Notes under the pieces: generated by a model
The model's database searches: none
What the model saw: only the letters and a program-made list of their open reading frames with translations
What the model was told of the DNA's origin: nothing
Translations under genes and position numbers: made by a program
Shown: piece by piece, positions 25,571 to 30,439 of the stretch
Numbering within the stretch: position 1 is the stretch's first letter
Layout: each line of letters opens with the position of its first letter
Assembly (NCBI RefSeq): GCF_003336205.1
Contig: NZ_QPIE01000004.1
Location: forward strand, 186,001 to 250,000
DNA: 64,000 bases
DNA from: Chryseobacterium lacus
Lineage (GTDB): Bacteria; Bacteroidota; Bacteroidia; Flavobacteriales; Weeksellaceae
Reading direction: 5' to 3'

Positions 25571-25626
25571 ATTCCGGTCCTAAAAGAAAGAGAAAATCTG
25601 TTTCTGTACAATCGTAATCTTCCTGC
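25571..25626. repeat. ~55-bp repeat, copy A
   Basis: The stretch from ATTCCGGTCCTAAAAG through AGAGAAAATCTG to ACAATCGTAATCTTCC is about 75% identical to 30323-30378 in the same orientation. The shared core is CTAAAAG-N2-AGAGAAAATCTG. It lies where the tlpA remnant loses recognisable sequence. Confidence 0.65.
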
Positions 25627-25902: not shown

Positions 25903-26610
25903 TTATTTCAGGAGCTGTTTCCGCACTTCGGCTTCTTCTACAAAGCCAAGGCTCTCCCAAATGATTTCGTTGTTTCTGTATAATTTAAGAACCGGCAGGG
26001 CAGAAACGTTCATCGCTTTGCACAGTTCTGTATTGTCATCGGCATTTACCCTTACAATTTTAACTTTCTCAGGCATTTCTGCGGCTATTTTGCTCAGGTA
26101 AGGTTCCATTTTTTTACAAGGCGCACACCAGTCAGCATAAAAATCGACAAGTACCAAACGGTCGCTTTTCAGCTCCTCGTTGTATTGCTGTAAACTCATG
26201 CCTTGCGTAGCTGCTGTGGATTTTAACTCGGGCAGGTTTTTGCTGCGCCATTCCATCATGCCTCTTTTCATCTCATAGATTTCACTGTAGCCCATTTCCT
26301 TCAGCTTTTCTGCTGCGGCTTCACTTCGGGGCCCACTGAGGCAGTACAAAAAGACAGGTTTTGCCGAATCTAGAGTGGCTGCTTTCTCTGCGAAATCATC
26401 AGCATTCCAGTCGATGTTTACCGCGTTCTGAAGGTGCCCTTTTTTATATTCGTTAAGGGTTCTTACATCCACCACTTGGGCATTAGGAGTTTTTTTCAGT
26501 TTTTCTGAAAACTCGGTGGCAGAAAGTGATGTTGTGCTTGCGGTGTTCTGGGCTTTGCTGCAGCTGATCATGACCAGAGCGAAAAGAGCGATGATGATGC
26601 TTTTGTACAT
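25903..26610 (-). CDS. Rhodanese-thioredoxin fusion lipoprotein
   Basis: The 235-residue protein begins with a lipoprotein signal (MYKSIIIALFALVMISC). Residues about 30-120 form a rhodanese domain with the active Cys in YCLSGPRS, and residues about 130-235 form a thioredoxin domain with WCAPC. It should act in the periplasm, moving sulfane sulfur or reducing persulfides and disulfides. It follows trxA by 3 bases in an operon with DUF2892 and MBL-rhodanese genes, all pointing to sulfur or persulfide handling. Confidence 0.88.
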   Translation of the reverse strand: MYKSIIIALFALVMISCSKAQNTASTTSLSATEFSEKLKKTPNAQVVDVRTLNEYKKGHLQNAVNIDWNADDFAEKAATLDSAKPVFLYCLSGPRSEAAAEKLKEMGYSEIYEMKRGMMEWRSKNLPELKSTAATQGMSLQQYNEELKSDRLVLVDFYADWCAPCKKMEPYLSKIAAEMPEKVKIVRVNADDNTELCKAMNVSALPVLKLYRNNEIIWESLGFVEEAEVRKQLLK

Positions 26611-26613
26611 ATT

Positions 26614-26910
26614 TTAACTGTTTTCTTTGATTAAACGTTCCAGTTCTTCGGCGGGAAAAACCCCCGACTGTTTCCATTTTATTTCTCCGTTTTTAAAGAT
26701 CATGAGCGTAGGAACGCTTCTGATTCCGTATTTTGCTGCAACGCCCGGGTTTTTATCGATATCTATTTTAATGATGGTAGCCTGGTCGTTTACCCGTTTT
26801 TTAAGGTCTTCCAGAATGGGTGCCTGCATTTTGCACGGGCCGCACCATTCCGCAAAAAAGTCGACCAAAACAGGTTTGTCCTGACTGATAAGTTCCTGAA
26901 ATTTTGACAT
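26614..26910 (-). CDS. trxA: Thioredoxin
   Basis: This 98-residue cytosolic thioredoxin carries WCGPC with the usual flanks ([17 protein letters not shown]) and the cis-proline region SVPTLMIF. It reduces protein disulfides and, in this operon, probably also persulfide released by the neighbouring rhodanese and MBL proteins. It sits 10 bases after the DUF2892 gene and 3 bases before the rhodanese-thioredoxin gene. As a short accessory thioredoxin it is probably not the main cellular TrxA. Confidence 0.9.
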
Positions 26911-26920
26911 GTTTTTTACT

Positions 26921-27166
26921 TTATTTTGATTGTACTTCTTCGAATTCTACTTCATCCGTATCCGAGCCGGATGATTTATTGTCCGTTACGGCACAGTTCC
27001 CGCCCGCACAACAGCCGATGTTCAGCAGCGGCATGATGATCATTGCCGCAGCAAATACCGTCATGAACCAATTGCCGGTCCTGATGGCTTCTGTCATCAG
27101 GAAAAGGCCTAATGCCAGACGGAGGATGCGGAAGATATTCCAGTTTGTGGTGATATTCTGAATCAT
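26921..27166 (-). CDS. DUF2892 (YgaP-like) membrane protein
   Basis: The 81-residue protein has two hydrophobic segments ([17 protein letters not shown] and [17 protein letters not shown]) followed by [10 protein letters not shown], a Cys-rich end of the DUF2892 module found in the membrane part of rhodanese YgaP. The tail is acidic. It likely sits in the inner membrane with its cysteines close to the rhodanese partners; the exact role is unknown. It is 9 bases after the MBL-rhodanese gene. Confidence 0.85.
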
Positions 27167-27175
27167 TTTTGGATT

Positions 27176-28567
27176 TTAAGATATTACGGGATTTTCTTTT
27201 TCGCGCCATTCCTTCATCCCACCGGAATAGTTTTTTACATTATTGAACCCGTTTCTTCTGAGCACGGAGTAGGCAATCGCAGAGCGGTCGCCGCTTTGGC
27301 AGTGAATAACCACCTGTCTTTCTTTGCTTATTTTATCAAGGTTTTGAGGAAGTGTTCCCACAAAAATATTTTCCGCGCCTTCTATATGACCCTGTTCATA
27401 TTCGGTTTTTCCTCTTACATCTACGATCTGCACTTCTTCTCTGCCAATATAGGTTTTAAATTCTTCGATATCGATAACGTCGGCTTTCTGGAGTTCAATG
27501 CCCGGTAAATTGACGTCGGAAATAAATCCGGCAATCCTGTCGAGACCGATGCGCATGAGTTTTCTGGTGATTTCATCCATTTCTTCTTCGGGAGCTACGA
27601 TTATGAAATCTTCATCATAATTCAGCAGCCAGCCCGCCCATGTACTTAGGGTTTTGTTGTTCTGGATGTTGATGCTTCCGGGAATAAATCCTTTGGCGAA
27701 CTCCACTTTATTGCGTGTATCGATCACTTTTATTCCGTCAGTATATTTTTGAAGAAATTCTGTTTCGGACAGTTTCGGATGTTTCGGAACTTCAGTCAGT
27801 AAAGGGCGGTCTACTTTATTGAGCTTTTTCATCATGGCAAAATACTTCGGTGGTTCCGGCTGACCTTCCAGCAGGTATTCCACAAAACCATCCTCATCAT
27901 TTTCGAAGCGGAATGCCCAGTTTCTGATTTTCTCATAGCCTACGGTAGAACTTGGAACGGAGCCCAGCGCTTTTCCACAGGCAGATCCCGCACCATGACC
28001 CGGCCACACCTGAAGGTGTGGAGGCAGTTTTGAAAAATCCTGTACCGACCGGTACATTTCTTGAGCACCTTTTTCCTGGGTTCCGGTGATTCCGGCAGCT
28101 TTTTCAAGCAGATCCGGCCGGCCGATATCGCCAACAAACACAAAGTCTCCGGTGAAAATCATTACGGGTTCATCTGTTGCAGGATGATCGGTGAGCAGGA
28201 AACTAATACTTTCCGGGGTGTGTCCCGGTGTATGGATTACTTCCAGTGTCAGGTTTCCGACTTTAATTTTATCGCCGTGTTTCAAACTTTCGTGGGGAAA
28301 TTCGTATTGCCAGTCCACGCCGCCCTCATCGGAAAGATACAGTTGTGCTCCTGTAATTTCTGCCAGTTCACGTGAACCCGAAAGAAAATCGGCGTGAATA
28401 TGCGTTTCGGTAATATGGGTTATGGTAAGGTTATTTTCTTTAGCGATCTCCAGATAGGTATCCACATCACGCTTTGCGTCGATTACAATCGCTTCACCTT
28501 TTGCCTGACAGCCGATTAAATAGCTGCCCTGTGCTAAACTTGTATCATAAATGTGTTTAAAGAACAT
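27176..28567 (-). CDS. MBL-fold persulfide dioxygenase-like protein with two rhodanese domains
   Basis: The 463-residue protein starts with an ETHE1-like metallo-beta-lactamase domain (H56, H58, D60 in THIHADF; HTPGHTPES; GDFVFVGDIGRPDL). Two rhodanese domains follow: the first (about 265-350) lacks the catalytic Cys, having VAPEEE there, and the second (about 365-460) keeps it in HCQSGDRS. This layout fits sulfur dioxygenase-rhodanese enzymes that oxidise glutathione- or thiol-persulfide. It is the first gene of the redox operon. Confidence 0.88.
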   Translation of the reverse strand: MFFKHIYDTSLAQGSYLIGCQAKGEAIVIDAKRDVDTYLEIAKENNLTITHITETHIHADFLSGSRELAEITGAQLYLSDEGGVDWQYEFPHESLKHGDKIKVGNLTLEVIHTPGHTPESISFLLTDHPATDEPVMIFTGDFVFVGDIGRPDLLEKAAGITGTQEKGAQEMYRSVQDFSKLPPHLQVWPGHGAGSACGKALGSVPSSTVGYEKIRNWAFRFENDEDGFVEYLLEGQPEPPKYFAMMKKLNKVDRPLLTEVPKHPKLSETEFLQKYTDGIKVIDTRNKVEFAKGFIPGSINIQNNKTLSTWAGWLLNYDEDFIIVAPEEEMDEITRKLMRIGLDRIAGFISDVNLPGIELQKADVIDIEEFKTYIGREEVQIVDVRGKTEYEQGHIEGAENIFVGTLPQNLDKISKERQVVIHCQSGDRSAIAYSVLRRNGFNNVKNYSGGMKEWREKENPVIS

Positions 28568-28627: not shown

Positions 28628-28711
28628 ATTTTTTTAGATGGAAAATAAGGCTTAAATAGTATTCACCATGATGAAAATTTCGATAACAGTGCATTTTGTT
28701 ATCCTCTTTTG

Positions 28712-28719
28712 CAAAGTTA
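28712..28719 (-). promoter_or_regulatory. -7 element of the redox operon
   Basis: On the minus strand this reads TAACTTTG, an exact TAnnTTTG match. Its first base is 29.5 bp from the centre of the GTAAC-N4-GTTAC palindrome at 28742-28755, the same spacing as at tolC. The predicted leader is about 140 bases. Confidence 0.6.
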
Positions 28720-28741
28720 TTCTAACAGAATTTAGCAAAAG

Positions 28742-28755
28742 GTAACATTGGTTAC
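28742..28755. promoter_or_regulatory. Crp/Fnr-type operator GTAAC-N4-GTTAC
   Basis: GTAACATTGGTTAC is a perfect inverted repeat with a 4-base spacer. Counting from the -7 element at 28712-28719, its centre falls near -42, the class II activator position for Crp/Fnr proteins, and it takes the place of the -33 element. The same operator occurs once more, at 29502-29515. Confidence 0.65.
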
Positions 28756-28817
28756 TTAAAAAGGTTGGCATCGCCTGATAACAGATAAAGAGCGGCAGAA
28801 TTTTGTAATTTTGTAAA

Positions 28818-29447
28818 ATGGAAATCACTGATTCAATTAAAGACCTTTTCGAGCCAGAACTGATGGAAGAGATCCTTGCCGTCGGTAAAAAGAAAACAGC
28901 CAAAGAAGGGGAGGTGATCATCAACATCGGTCAGCGTTTGCTCTTCATGCCCATTGTACTTCAGGGAACCGTGAAAGTTTCCATGATGCAGCCCGACGGA
29001 CGCGAACTGCTGATGTATTATCTAAGTGCCAGCGAAGGCTGCGCCATGTCGTTCACCTGCTGTATGCAGGAAGCCAAAAGCGAAATAATGGCCATCGCCG
29101 AAGAAGACGTGGAAATGTGGATGATTCCGGTAGAGTACATGGATTCCTGGATGCATAAATATCCCAGCTGGAAAAGTTTCGTGATGCGCACCATGCAAAA
29201 CCGCTTTTACGAGATGCTGAGAGCACTGGACATGGTGGTTTTCAACGGTCTTGATGTACGACTCGCCAATTATCTCAGAGAAAAATCAAAGATCACGGGA
29301 AAAACTGTACTGAATGTCTCCCACGAAGAAATAGCCAACGATTTGGCCAGTTCGCGCGTTGTAATCAGCCGGCTTCTTAAAAAATTGGAGAACGATGGTA
29401 AGGTGCTGCTTTACCGCAACCAGATTAAGTTGCTGAAGGATTTTTAA
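28818..29447 (+). CDS. Crp/Fnr family transcriptional regulator
   Basis: The 209-residue regulator has an N-terminal cyclic-nucleotide-binding-like beta barrel (about 20-115) and a C-terminal winged helix (about 150-209, with EEIANDLASSRVVISRLLKK). The sensor domain carries clustered cysteines in CAMSFTCCM, which could respond to thiols, persulfide or redox state. It is divergent from the sulfur operon, has TAATTTTG (28806-28813) very near its start codon, and probably binds the two GTAAC-N4-GTTAC sites beside it. A strong terminator follows. Confidence 0.88.
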   Translation: MEITDSIKDLFEPELMEEILAVGKKKTAKEGEVIINIGQRLLFMPIVLQGTVKVSMMQPDGRELLMYYLSASEGCAMSFTCCMQEAKSEIMAIAEEDVEMWMIPVEYMDSWMHKYPSWKSFVMRTMQNRFYEMLRALDMVVFNGLDVRLANYLREKSKITGKTVLNVSHEEIANDLASSRVVISRLLKKLENDGKVLLYRNQIKLLKDF

Positions 29448-29471
29448 GAAATTTAATATAGAAAACAGTAC

Positions 29472-29497
29472 ACACGGCCTTGCGGCCGTGTTTTTTT
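29472..29497 (+). terminator. Strong intrinsic terminator
   Basis: Perfect stem CACGGCC (29473-29479) / GGCCGTG (29484-29490), 4-base loop, then seven T. It separates the regulator gene from tolC. Confidence 0.9.
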
Positions 29498-29501
29498 GTA
29501 T

Positions 29502-29515
29502 GTAACTCAGGTTAC
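29502..29515. promoter_or_regulatory. Crp/Fnr-type operator at tolC
   Basis: GTAACTCAGGTTAC is the second GTAAC-N4-GTTAC palindrome. Its centre (29508.5) is 29.5 bp upstream of the first base of the -7 element at 29538, exactly the spacing found at the redox operon. Confidence 0.65.
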
Positions 29516-29537
29516 GTTCTCTGCTCCGAATAGCAGG

Positions 29538-29545
29538 TACATTTG
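29538..29545 (+). promoter_or_regulatory. -7 element of tolC
   Basis: TACATTTG, an exact TAnnTTTG match, 18 bases before the tolC ATG at 29564. The operator at 29502-29515 occupies the place of a -33 box. Confidence 0.65.
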
Positions 29546-29563
29546 CACAAAATTATACGGAAC

Positions 29564-30439
29564 ATGAGAAAACTATTGATTACTGCATTTGCAATGTTCT
29601 TGAGTACAGTCCTTTGGGCTCAGGAAACAGTGCAGGTTTCCAGACAGGATCTGGAAGAGAAGATTGAGCGTAACAACCTTCAGCTTAAAATTGCGTCTGC
29701 AGAAGTACATTCTGCCGAGGCCGATCTGCTAATGTCCCGCGCGATGCATTTGCCTAACATAAAAGCCAGCTATACGGGGATTTCTACCAATAATCCGCTG
29801 ATGGCCTTTGGCTCCAAACTCAATCAGGAAAGAGTGACGATGGAGGATTTTAATCCCGCCAACCTCAACAATCCTAAGAATATTTTCAATTTCGCCACCA
29901 AACTCGAAGTGCAGCAACCCATTTACAATAAAGATGCGGTGTATATGAAGAAAGCCGGAGAAGTAAAGGTTGAAGTTCTGAAACTGAAACAGGAGCGCTC
30001 CCGCGAATACCTGAAATTTGAATTGAACAAAGCCTACATGCAGCTTCAGATGGCTTATAAAAATGTGGAAGTGCTGGAAGGCGCGAGAAACACTGTTCTG
30101 GCCAATAAAAAAGTTATTGAAAATTACTTTAAAAACGGCATGATTCAGAAATCTGATGTACTGGATATGAATGTCCGTGTGGCAGAAATCGACAGCCAGA
30201 TCCGTTTTGCAAATTCGAATGTGCAGAACGCCTCAGACTATCTTTTTTATCTGCTGGATGAATCTCCCGAAAATAAAGTGATGAAACCTTCCGAAACCCT
30301 CGAAGGATCAGATGTTCGTTTTACCCCGGCTCTAAAAGGGAGAGAAAATCTGACCCTTTACAATCATCATCTTCGCCAATCTGGAATTTGGGTTAGTCTG
30401 CAATTCATTGCATTGTCGCAGCGATGCTTTAATGGATAG
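29564..30439 (+). pseudogene. Truncated TolC-family outer-membrane efflux protein
   Basis: The frame gives 291 residues with a signal peptide (MRKLLITAFAMFLSTVLWAQ) and the long helices and periodic repeats of TolC-type proteins (for example KASYTGISTNNPLMAFGSKL). Family members are usually about 400-450 residues with two repeats; here recognisable sequence stops near residue 255, at base 30328, where the ~55-bp repeat begins. The remaining 36 residues look random. No HlyD or RND gene follows. The start at 29564 fits the signal peptide better than 29543. Probably non-functional. Confidence 0.75.
30323..30378. repeat. ~55-bp repeat, copy B
   Basis: Runs from ACCCCGGCTCTAAAAGGGAG to ACAATCATCATCTTCG and aligns without gaps to copy A at 25571-25626. 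It marks the break in tolC. Between it and the next gene (30440-30652) I see no gene or terminator. Confidence 0.65.

Follow-up and report, generated by a model that had tools for sequence, protein, structure and literature searches.

A single activator, the local Crp/Fnr protein, quite probably runs a reactive-sulfur regulon through two GTAAC-N4-GTTAC palindromes that lie on either side of its gene in a 64,000 nt stretch of the Chryseobacterium lacus genome (hereafter the window). From sequence patterns, we infer that this protein would bind the palindromes directly and that it activates rather than represses. The signal would most likely be sulfane sulfur or persulfide reacting with Cys75, Cys81 and Cys82 of the regulator. 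A broader reading, in which Crp/Fnr activators widespread in the class Bacteroidia sense sulfane sulfur directly, by cysteines in what was once the cyclic-nucleotide pocket, and use a single strict operator-promoter geometry to command both sulfide/persulfide detoxification and a dedicated TolC-RND exporter, has in our judgement an even chance of being correct.

Operators, promoters and genes of the locus

The features of the locus, in window coordinates, are as follows.

25903..26610, minus strand: lipoprotein-like fusion of rhodanese and thioredoxin, encoded at the end of the intact part of the sulfur operon (Pfam Rhodanese, Thioredoxin)
26614..26910, minus strand: thioredoxin (WCGPC) of the sulfur operon (TIGR01068, above cut-off)
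26921..27166, minus strand: small membrane protein, DUF2892-like by inspection; position kept in relatives
27176..28567, minus strand: MBL-fold protein with two rhodanese domains, CstB-like persulfide dioxygenase/sulfurtransferase (Pfam Lactamase_B, two Rhodanese)
28712..28719, minus strand: -7 element TAACTTTG of the sulfur operon, spanning -12 to -5; relatives share its six fixed bases
28742..28755, minus strand: operator 1 (GTAAC-N4-GTTAC) of the sulfur operon promoter, with its centre near -41.5
28806..28813, plus strand: -7 element TAATTTTG serving the regulator gene, at -12 from its ATG
28818..29447, plus strand: regulator of Crp/Fnr type; cysteine motif C75-x-M-x3-C81-C82, recognition helix SSRVVISR (Pfam cNMP_binding, HTH_Crp_2)
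29502..29515, plus strand: operator 2 (GTAAC-N4-GTTAC) of the tolC promoter, with its centre near -41.5
29538..29545, plus strand: -7 element TACATTTG of tolC
29564..30439, plus strand: tolC remnant, residues 1-266 of a 434-residue TolC followed by an unrelated tail

The initial annotation had reported two copies of the palindrome and no other in the window. Indeed, we find only those at 28742-28755 (GTAACATTGGTTAC) and 29502-29515 (GTAACTCAGGTTAC), with no further copy in the window even when one mismatch is allowed; shuffled sequences lead one to expect 0.04 exact copies per window. The whole genome (2.38 Mb) contains one additional exact palindrome, located within a SulP-family coding sequence, which lacks a -7 element at the right distance and was rejected as background.

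At both sites the edge of the palindrome lies 22 bp from the TAnnTTTG element, and the distance of 29.5 bp from operator centre to first base of this element, also given in the initial annotation, is correct at both. In the flavobacterium Flavobacterium psychrophilum, TAnnTTTG is the sigma-A box spanning -12 to -5 (PMC9723704), which places the operator centres here at -41.5. Transcript starts deduced from TAnnTTTG are predicted at 28707 (minus strand) and 29550 (plus strand). The class II activator position of CRP and FNR is -41.5, and by sequence geometry the two promoters have the form of class II Crp/Fnr-activated promoters, with an operator centred near -41.5, a fixed phase and no -35/-33 box of their own.

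The first gene of the operon controlled by operator 1 encodes an MBL domain followed by two rhodanese domains, as in CstB-type enzymes. Its product matches PDB 3tp9 and 3r2u over its full length (E values of 1e-124 and 1e-114); the similarity to 3r2u, which we take to be the Staphylococcus aureus CstB structure, extends over residues 1-453. The small membrane protein encoded at 26921..27166 has no Pfam match at 1e-4.

The regulator gene has a -7 box of its own at -12 relative to the ATG, and the same position is kept in relatives L034, L035, L037, L038 and L041. Its mRNA is therefore predicted to be leaderless and not tied to the operator distance. Since the distance from operator 1 to the ATG varies (76, 68, 94 and 102 bp) while this -7 box is fixed, autoregulation through operator 1 at a fixed geometry is unlikely.

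Conservation of the operator geometry and its association with the regulator

The half-sites (10 of 10 bases) and the fixed bases of the -7 element (6 of 6) are identical at both promoters in relatives. For operator 1, all ten half-site bases are retained in L034, L035 and L037, where only 9-18 of the 22 spacer positions match; for operator 2 they are retained in L034, L035, L038 and L139, with spacer identity falling as low as 5 of 22. A logo built from 116 non-redundant sites contains no -33 element, in agreement with the earlier proposal that an operator near -42 replaces this box. It has a T at -49 in 80% of sites, and the predicted +1 is an A in 66%, a feature that was unused in finding the sites. 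Furthermore, several genomes carry a single palindrome that serves two divergent promoters, at gaps of 22 and 21-22 bp.

To scan the family, we searched 296 genomes and left the gap between palindrome and TAnnTTTG free to vary from 8 to 37 bp. Among the matches listed outside a first block that belongs mostly to one large genus (g21), the gap is exactly 22 bp in 106 of 121 cases and 21 bp in 6 of 121; the first block comprises 29 listed matches with scattered gaps. Chryseobacterium-like genomes (g21) have almost no sites, although they encode a paralogue whose recognition helix is similar, a point against the favored reading.

All 1024 possible half-sites were then compared at a gap of 22 bp. 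GTAAC alone is enriched: near the regulators of the family it scores 23 and the next best half-site 1; at the loci of distant relatives from other Bacteroidota the counts are 8 versus 1. The initial annotation had called for a search of related genomes for the operator upstream of TAnnTTTG near Crp/Fnr orthologues, and the outcome of that search (23 versus at most 1) supports its proposal. Against it, only 21 of 80 loci of more distant regulators have an exact palindrome nearby.

Across the phylum, the exact composite site of palindrome and -7 element is present in 33 of 375 genomes, all of them in the class Bacteroidia, and a reversed-pattern control found none in the same 375 genomes. We searched these genomes with a profile of the regulator, counting hits of at least 260 bits as close regulators. 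Composite sites occur in 25 of the 33 genomes with such a regulator versus 8 of the 342 without one (Fisher p = 2.5e-25; odds ratio about 130), and other cut-offs give a similar result. Adjacency is also frequent, with 20 of 56 sites lying within 10 kb of a regulator gene (26 regulator-bearing genomes). That the Crp/Fnr gene between the palindromes is the regulator, as first proposed, is therefore most likely on grounds of co-occurrence and adjacency, but paralogues may also use the operator. A link between recognition-helix residue 181 (V or E) and operator presence was considered and rejected, because both types have sites.

Regulon targets and the efflux arm

A census of the first genes after 139 distinct sites is dominated by functions in sulfur metabolism and export: MBL-rhodanese proteins (27), TolC (22), TauE-type permeases (19), rhodaneses (10), CoA-disulfide reductase-rhodanese proteins (4), YeiH-like exporters (4), and sulfide:quinone reductase (SQR), DsrE-like and DUF2892-like proteins (3 each). 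The SQR target scores above the curated cut-off. Single cases include OsmC and thioredoxins, and SulP permeases are found among the genes without a reference match. Judged solely by the genes associated with the operator, the regulator would share with the reactive-sulfur regulators CstR, SqrR and FisR the control of sulfide/persulfide oxidation genes. A further trait of that functional class is a change in DNA binding on cysteine persulfidation or formation of a polysulfide bridge, for which Cys75, Cys81 and Cys82, conserved in most members, would be the candidates here.

Sites before TolC and MBL-rhodanese genes recur in other families of the class, where TolC is mostly 44-52% identical to the local protein. 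The tolC genes of relatives precede genes for an adaptor and an AcrB-type RND pump, and the genome of a relative may hold up to about 10 sites. The predicted connection of persulfide oxidation with efflux thus recurs well beyond this genome, but the regulon is not as small as the initial annotation supposed.

Even in C. lacus, the regulon appears to extend beyond the two promoters on which the initial annotation was based. A composite site at C28:145432 (GTCACATAGGTTAC), correct in its gap and carrying a single mismatch, lies upstream of a gene for a TlpA-like thioredoxin, whose homologues reside inside the sulfur operon of relatives; this gene is probably a third target. Composite sites with two to three mismatches in the same genome were discarded, as there are 27 versus 60 in the reversed control.

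The sulfur arm of the regulon is intact in this genome, and the efflux arm fares differently from what had been assumed. The annotated tolC reading frame is broken. From its natural start, the ATG at 29564, the gene aligns to about 266 of the 434 residues of an intact homologue with 94% identity before the sequence changes abruptly near 30332-30352. No adaptor or RND gene follows the remnant, no matching RND pump is present elsewhere in the genome (the best RND protein there is 27% identical), and the foreign tail of tolC has no other match in it. Because tolC is shortened and its RND partner absent, the efflux arm is probably dead in this organism, with the tolC operator still intact. A 43-bp stretch at the break point (within 30332-30439) is 81% identical to 25580-25622, just past the point where the intact genes of the sulfur operon end; the sulfur locus thus lies between direct repeats, possibly the trace of a recombination or deletion.

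Several minor observations concern the relatives. G082 (C1:2652410-2679504) and G560 (C1:2653669-2679504) each carry a sulfur island with at least seven composite sites, and the near-identity of these sites in genomes of two families suggests horizontal transfer of the whole regulon. A TehB-like methyltransferase gene occurs in two relatives (L034:7253-7879 and L139:5373-5996), as the first gene behind the operator in one and as part of the TolC-RND operon in the other; its product might methylate sulfur compounds. In several relatives, a gene for a P-II-like small protein follows that of the RND pump (L034:14646-14951). At L162:2686, a palindrome with one mismatch and a 23-bp gap lies upstream of a gene that resembles cytochrome bd subunit I (by inspection, CydA), and oxidases of the bd type are known to tolerate sulfide.

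The regulator, its mechanism and alternative explanations

The regulator belongs to the Crp/Fnr superfamily (Pfam PF00027, PF13545 and PF00325, all above cut-off). Its predicted structure is a Crp fold with a mean pLDDT of 86, in which confidence is lower for some parts, the cysteine segment included, and the nearest solved structure is 3dv8. CRP contacts cAMP through E72, R82, S83, T127 and S128. In an alignment with the E. coli CRP and FNR sequences, the corresponding residues of the regulator are S, S, E, M and L. The protein is thus not a CRP proper, and with these contacts replaced a dependence on cAMP is unlikely. FNR proper holds its [4Fe-4S] cluster with an N-terminal group of cysteines and a central Cys. 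The regulator has three cysteines only (75, 81 and 82), none of them N-terminal, which sets it apart from FNR proper as well.

Cys75, Met77, Cys81 and Cys82 are invariant in a 61-row alignment, a set partly chosen by this motif. In a less selected set from the family, some members lack Cys82 or, rarely, Cys81, and a few natural type-1 regulators are without Cys82 or without both Cys81 and Cys82, which speaks against the favored reading. The recognition helix is conserved among relatives of the regulator.

In the mechanism that we favor, a regulator dimer would occupy GTAAC-N4-GTTAC, centred at -41.5 beside a sigma-A -7 box that has no -33 box, and would recruit RNA polymerase in the class II manner of CRP and FNR. 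Sulfane sulfur or persulfide would react with the cysteines in a pocket equivalent to the cAMP site of CRP. The genes switched on would be those for the oxidation and transfer of persulfide sulfur (the CstB-like enzyme, thioredoxin and rhodaneses); in relatives SQR, CoA-disulfide reductase and the TauE and YeiH exporters would also come under the regulator, and a TolC-adaptor-RND pump would be co-activated with the sulfur genes.

An operator common to several Crp/Fnr paralogues, which would set the regulon jointly, is possible but doubtful. With the cut at 260 bits, eight of the 33 site-bearing genomes have no close regulator, paralogues with a single cysteine and the helix TREATSR adjoin sites in G163 and G165, and in two regulator-less genomes a site precedes a hybrid-cluster-protein-like gene (L284) or an unrelated gene (L285). 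The genomes without a close regulator and the one-cysteine paralogues beside sites indicate that the operator may be used by further Crp/Fnr proteins. Against joint control stand the odds ratio of about 130 for the local type, its adjacency to sites in many unrelated genomes, and the presence in C. lacus of just one Crp/Fnr homologue at E below 1e-30. A different signal for the same activator and regulon, namely one based on heme (redox, NO or CO), is unlikely, but among rival signals it is the strongest. It has been proposed for PgRsp of Porphyromonas gingivalis, a heme-binding Crp/Fnr protein of 207 residues with Cys76 and Met78 that was modelled on PDB 3DV8 (PMC6955866). Compared by its published description, PgRsp is similar in length to the local regulator, its C-x-M falls at the same position as C75-x-M77, and its modelling template is also our nearest solved structure. 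However, PgRsp still bound heme after replacement of Cys76 or Met78 (PMC6955866), so that the C-x-M need not be a heme ligand, and the targets here are specifically genes for sulfur oxidation and transfer. PgRsp is described as a regulator of oxidative stress and virulence, and its published text reports neither a sulfur regulon nor a GTAAC operator.

We regard repression, in which a protein bound at -48 to -35 would block RNA polymerase until sulfur stress removes it, as CstR or SqrR do, as rather improbable. Although most sulfane-sulfur regulators described for gene sets of this type act by repression (PMC9774590), a repressor has no need for a fixed 22-bp spacing on one helix face, and the promoters lack the -33 element, a trait that class II activation would predict. 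Where one palindrome is equidistant from two divergent -7 boxes, this likewise fits an activator. Chance placement of palindromes beside common -7 boxes has a negligible probability: TAnnTTTG is frequent and one exact palindrome of this genome lies in coding DNA, but the reversed-pattern control (0 versus 33 of 375 genomes), the fixed spacing and the conservation footprint already refute it.

The target functions of this system are nearly the same as those of CstR and the cst genes of S. aureus (CstA, CstB, TauE and SQR), where CstR is a persulfide sensor. Both include a CstB-like enzyme, TauE, rhodaneses, SQR and CoA-disulfide reductase. In contrast to CstR, which is a repressor of the CsoR family, the present regulator is a Crp/Fnr protein and probably an activator, and its regulon includes a TolC-RND pump. 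SqrR/BigR (ArsR family) and FisR (a sigma-54 activator) also use conserved cysteines and control sulfide or persulfide oxidation genes (PMC9774590), but their protein families and promoter logic are unrelated to those seen here. The sensors covered in a 2022 review of how bacteria regulate reactive sulfur are of the CsoR, ArsR, Fis and OxyR types, with no mention of 'Fnr' or 'Bacteroid-' (PMC9774590), and we found no Crp/Fnr regulator of persulfide genes in Bacteroidota in the openly licensed literature; as far as we could find, sulfide and persulfide sensing in this phylum has been undescribed so far. For work in laboratory flavobacteria, the regulon supplies a list of targets, an operator rule that fits on one line and a predicted sensor, and it ties an RND pump of so far unassigned substrate to sulfur stress in several families.

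With class II CRP and FNR the system shares the Crp fold, 5-bp half-sites that stand 4 bp apart, like those of the FNR box, and a centre near -41.5 in place of the upstream box. It differs in its half-site (GTAAC instead of TTGAT), in the Bacteroidetes sigma-A element TAnnTTTG, and in a regulator that has neither the cAMP contacts of CRP nor the N-terminal cysteine cluster of FNR. Class II activation geometry is thus seen on an unusual sigma-A promoter.

Other Crp/Fnr proteins are also found near the operator. A paralogue with one cysteine (GESCIVS, helix TREATSR) adjoins both a composite site and a rhodanese gene at L138, L102 and L186, and this second regulator type may share GTAAC-N4-GTTAC. 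The composite site before the hybrid-cluster-protein-like gene of L284 (genome G530) may belong to an HcpR-like regulator that uses a similar operator.
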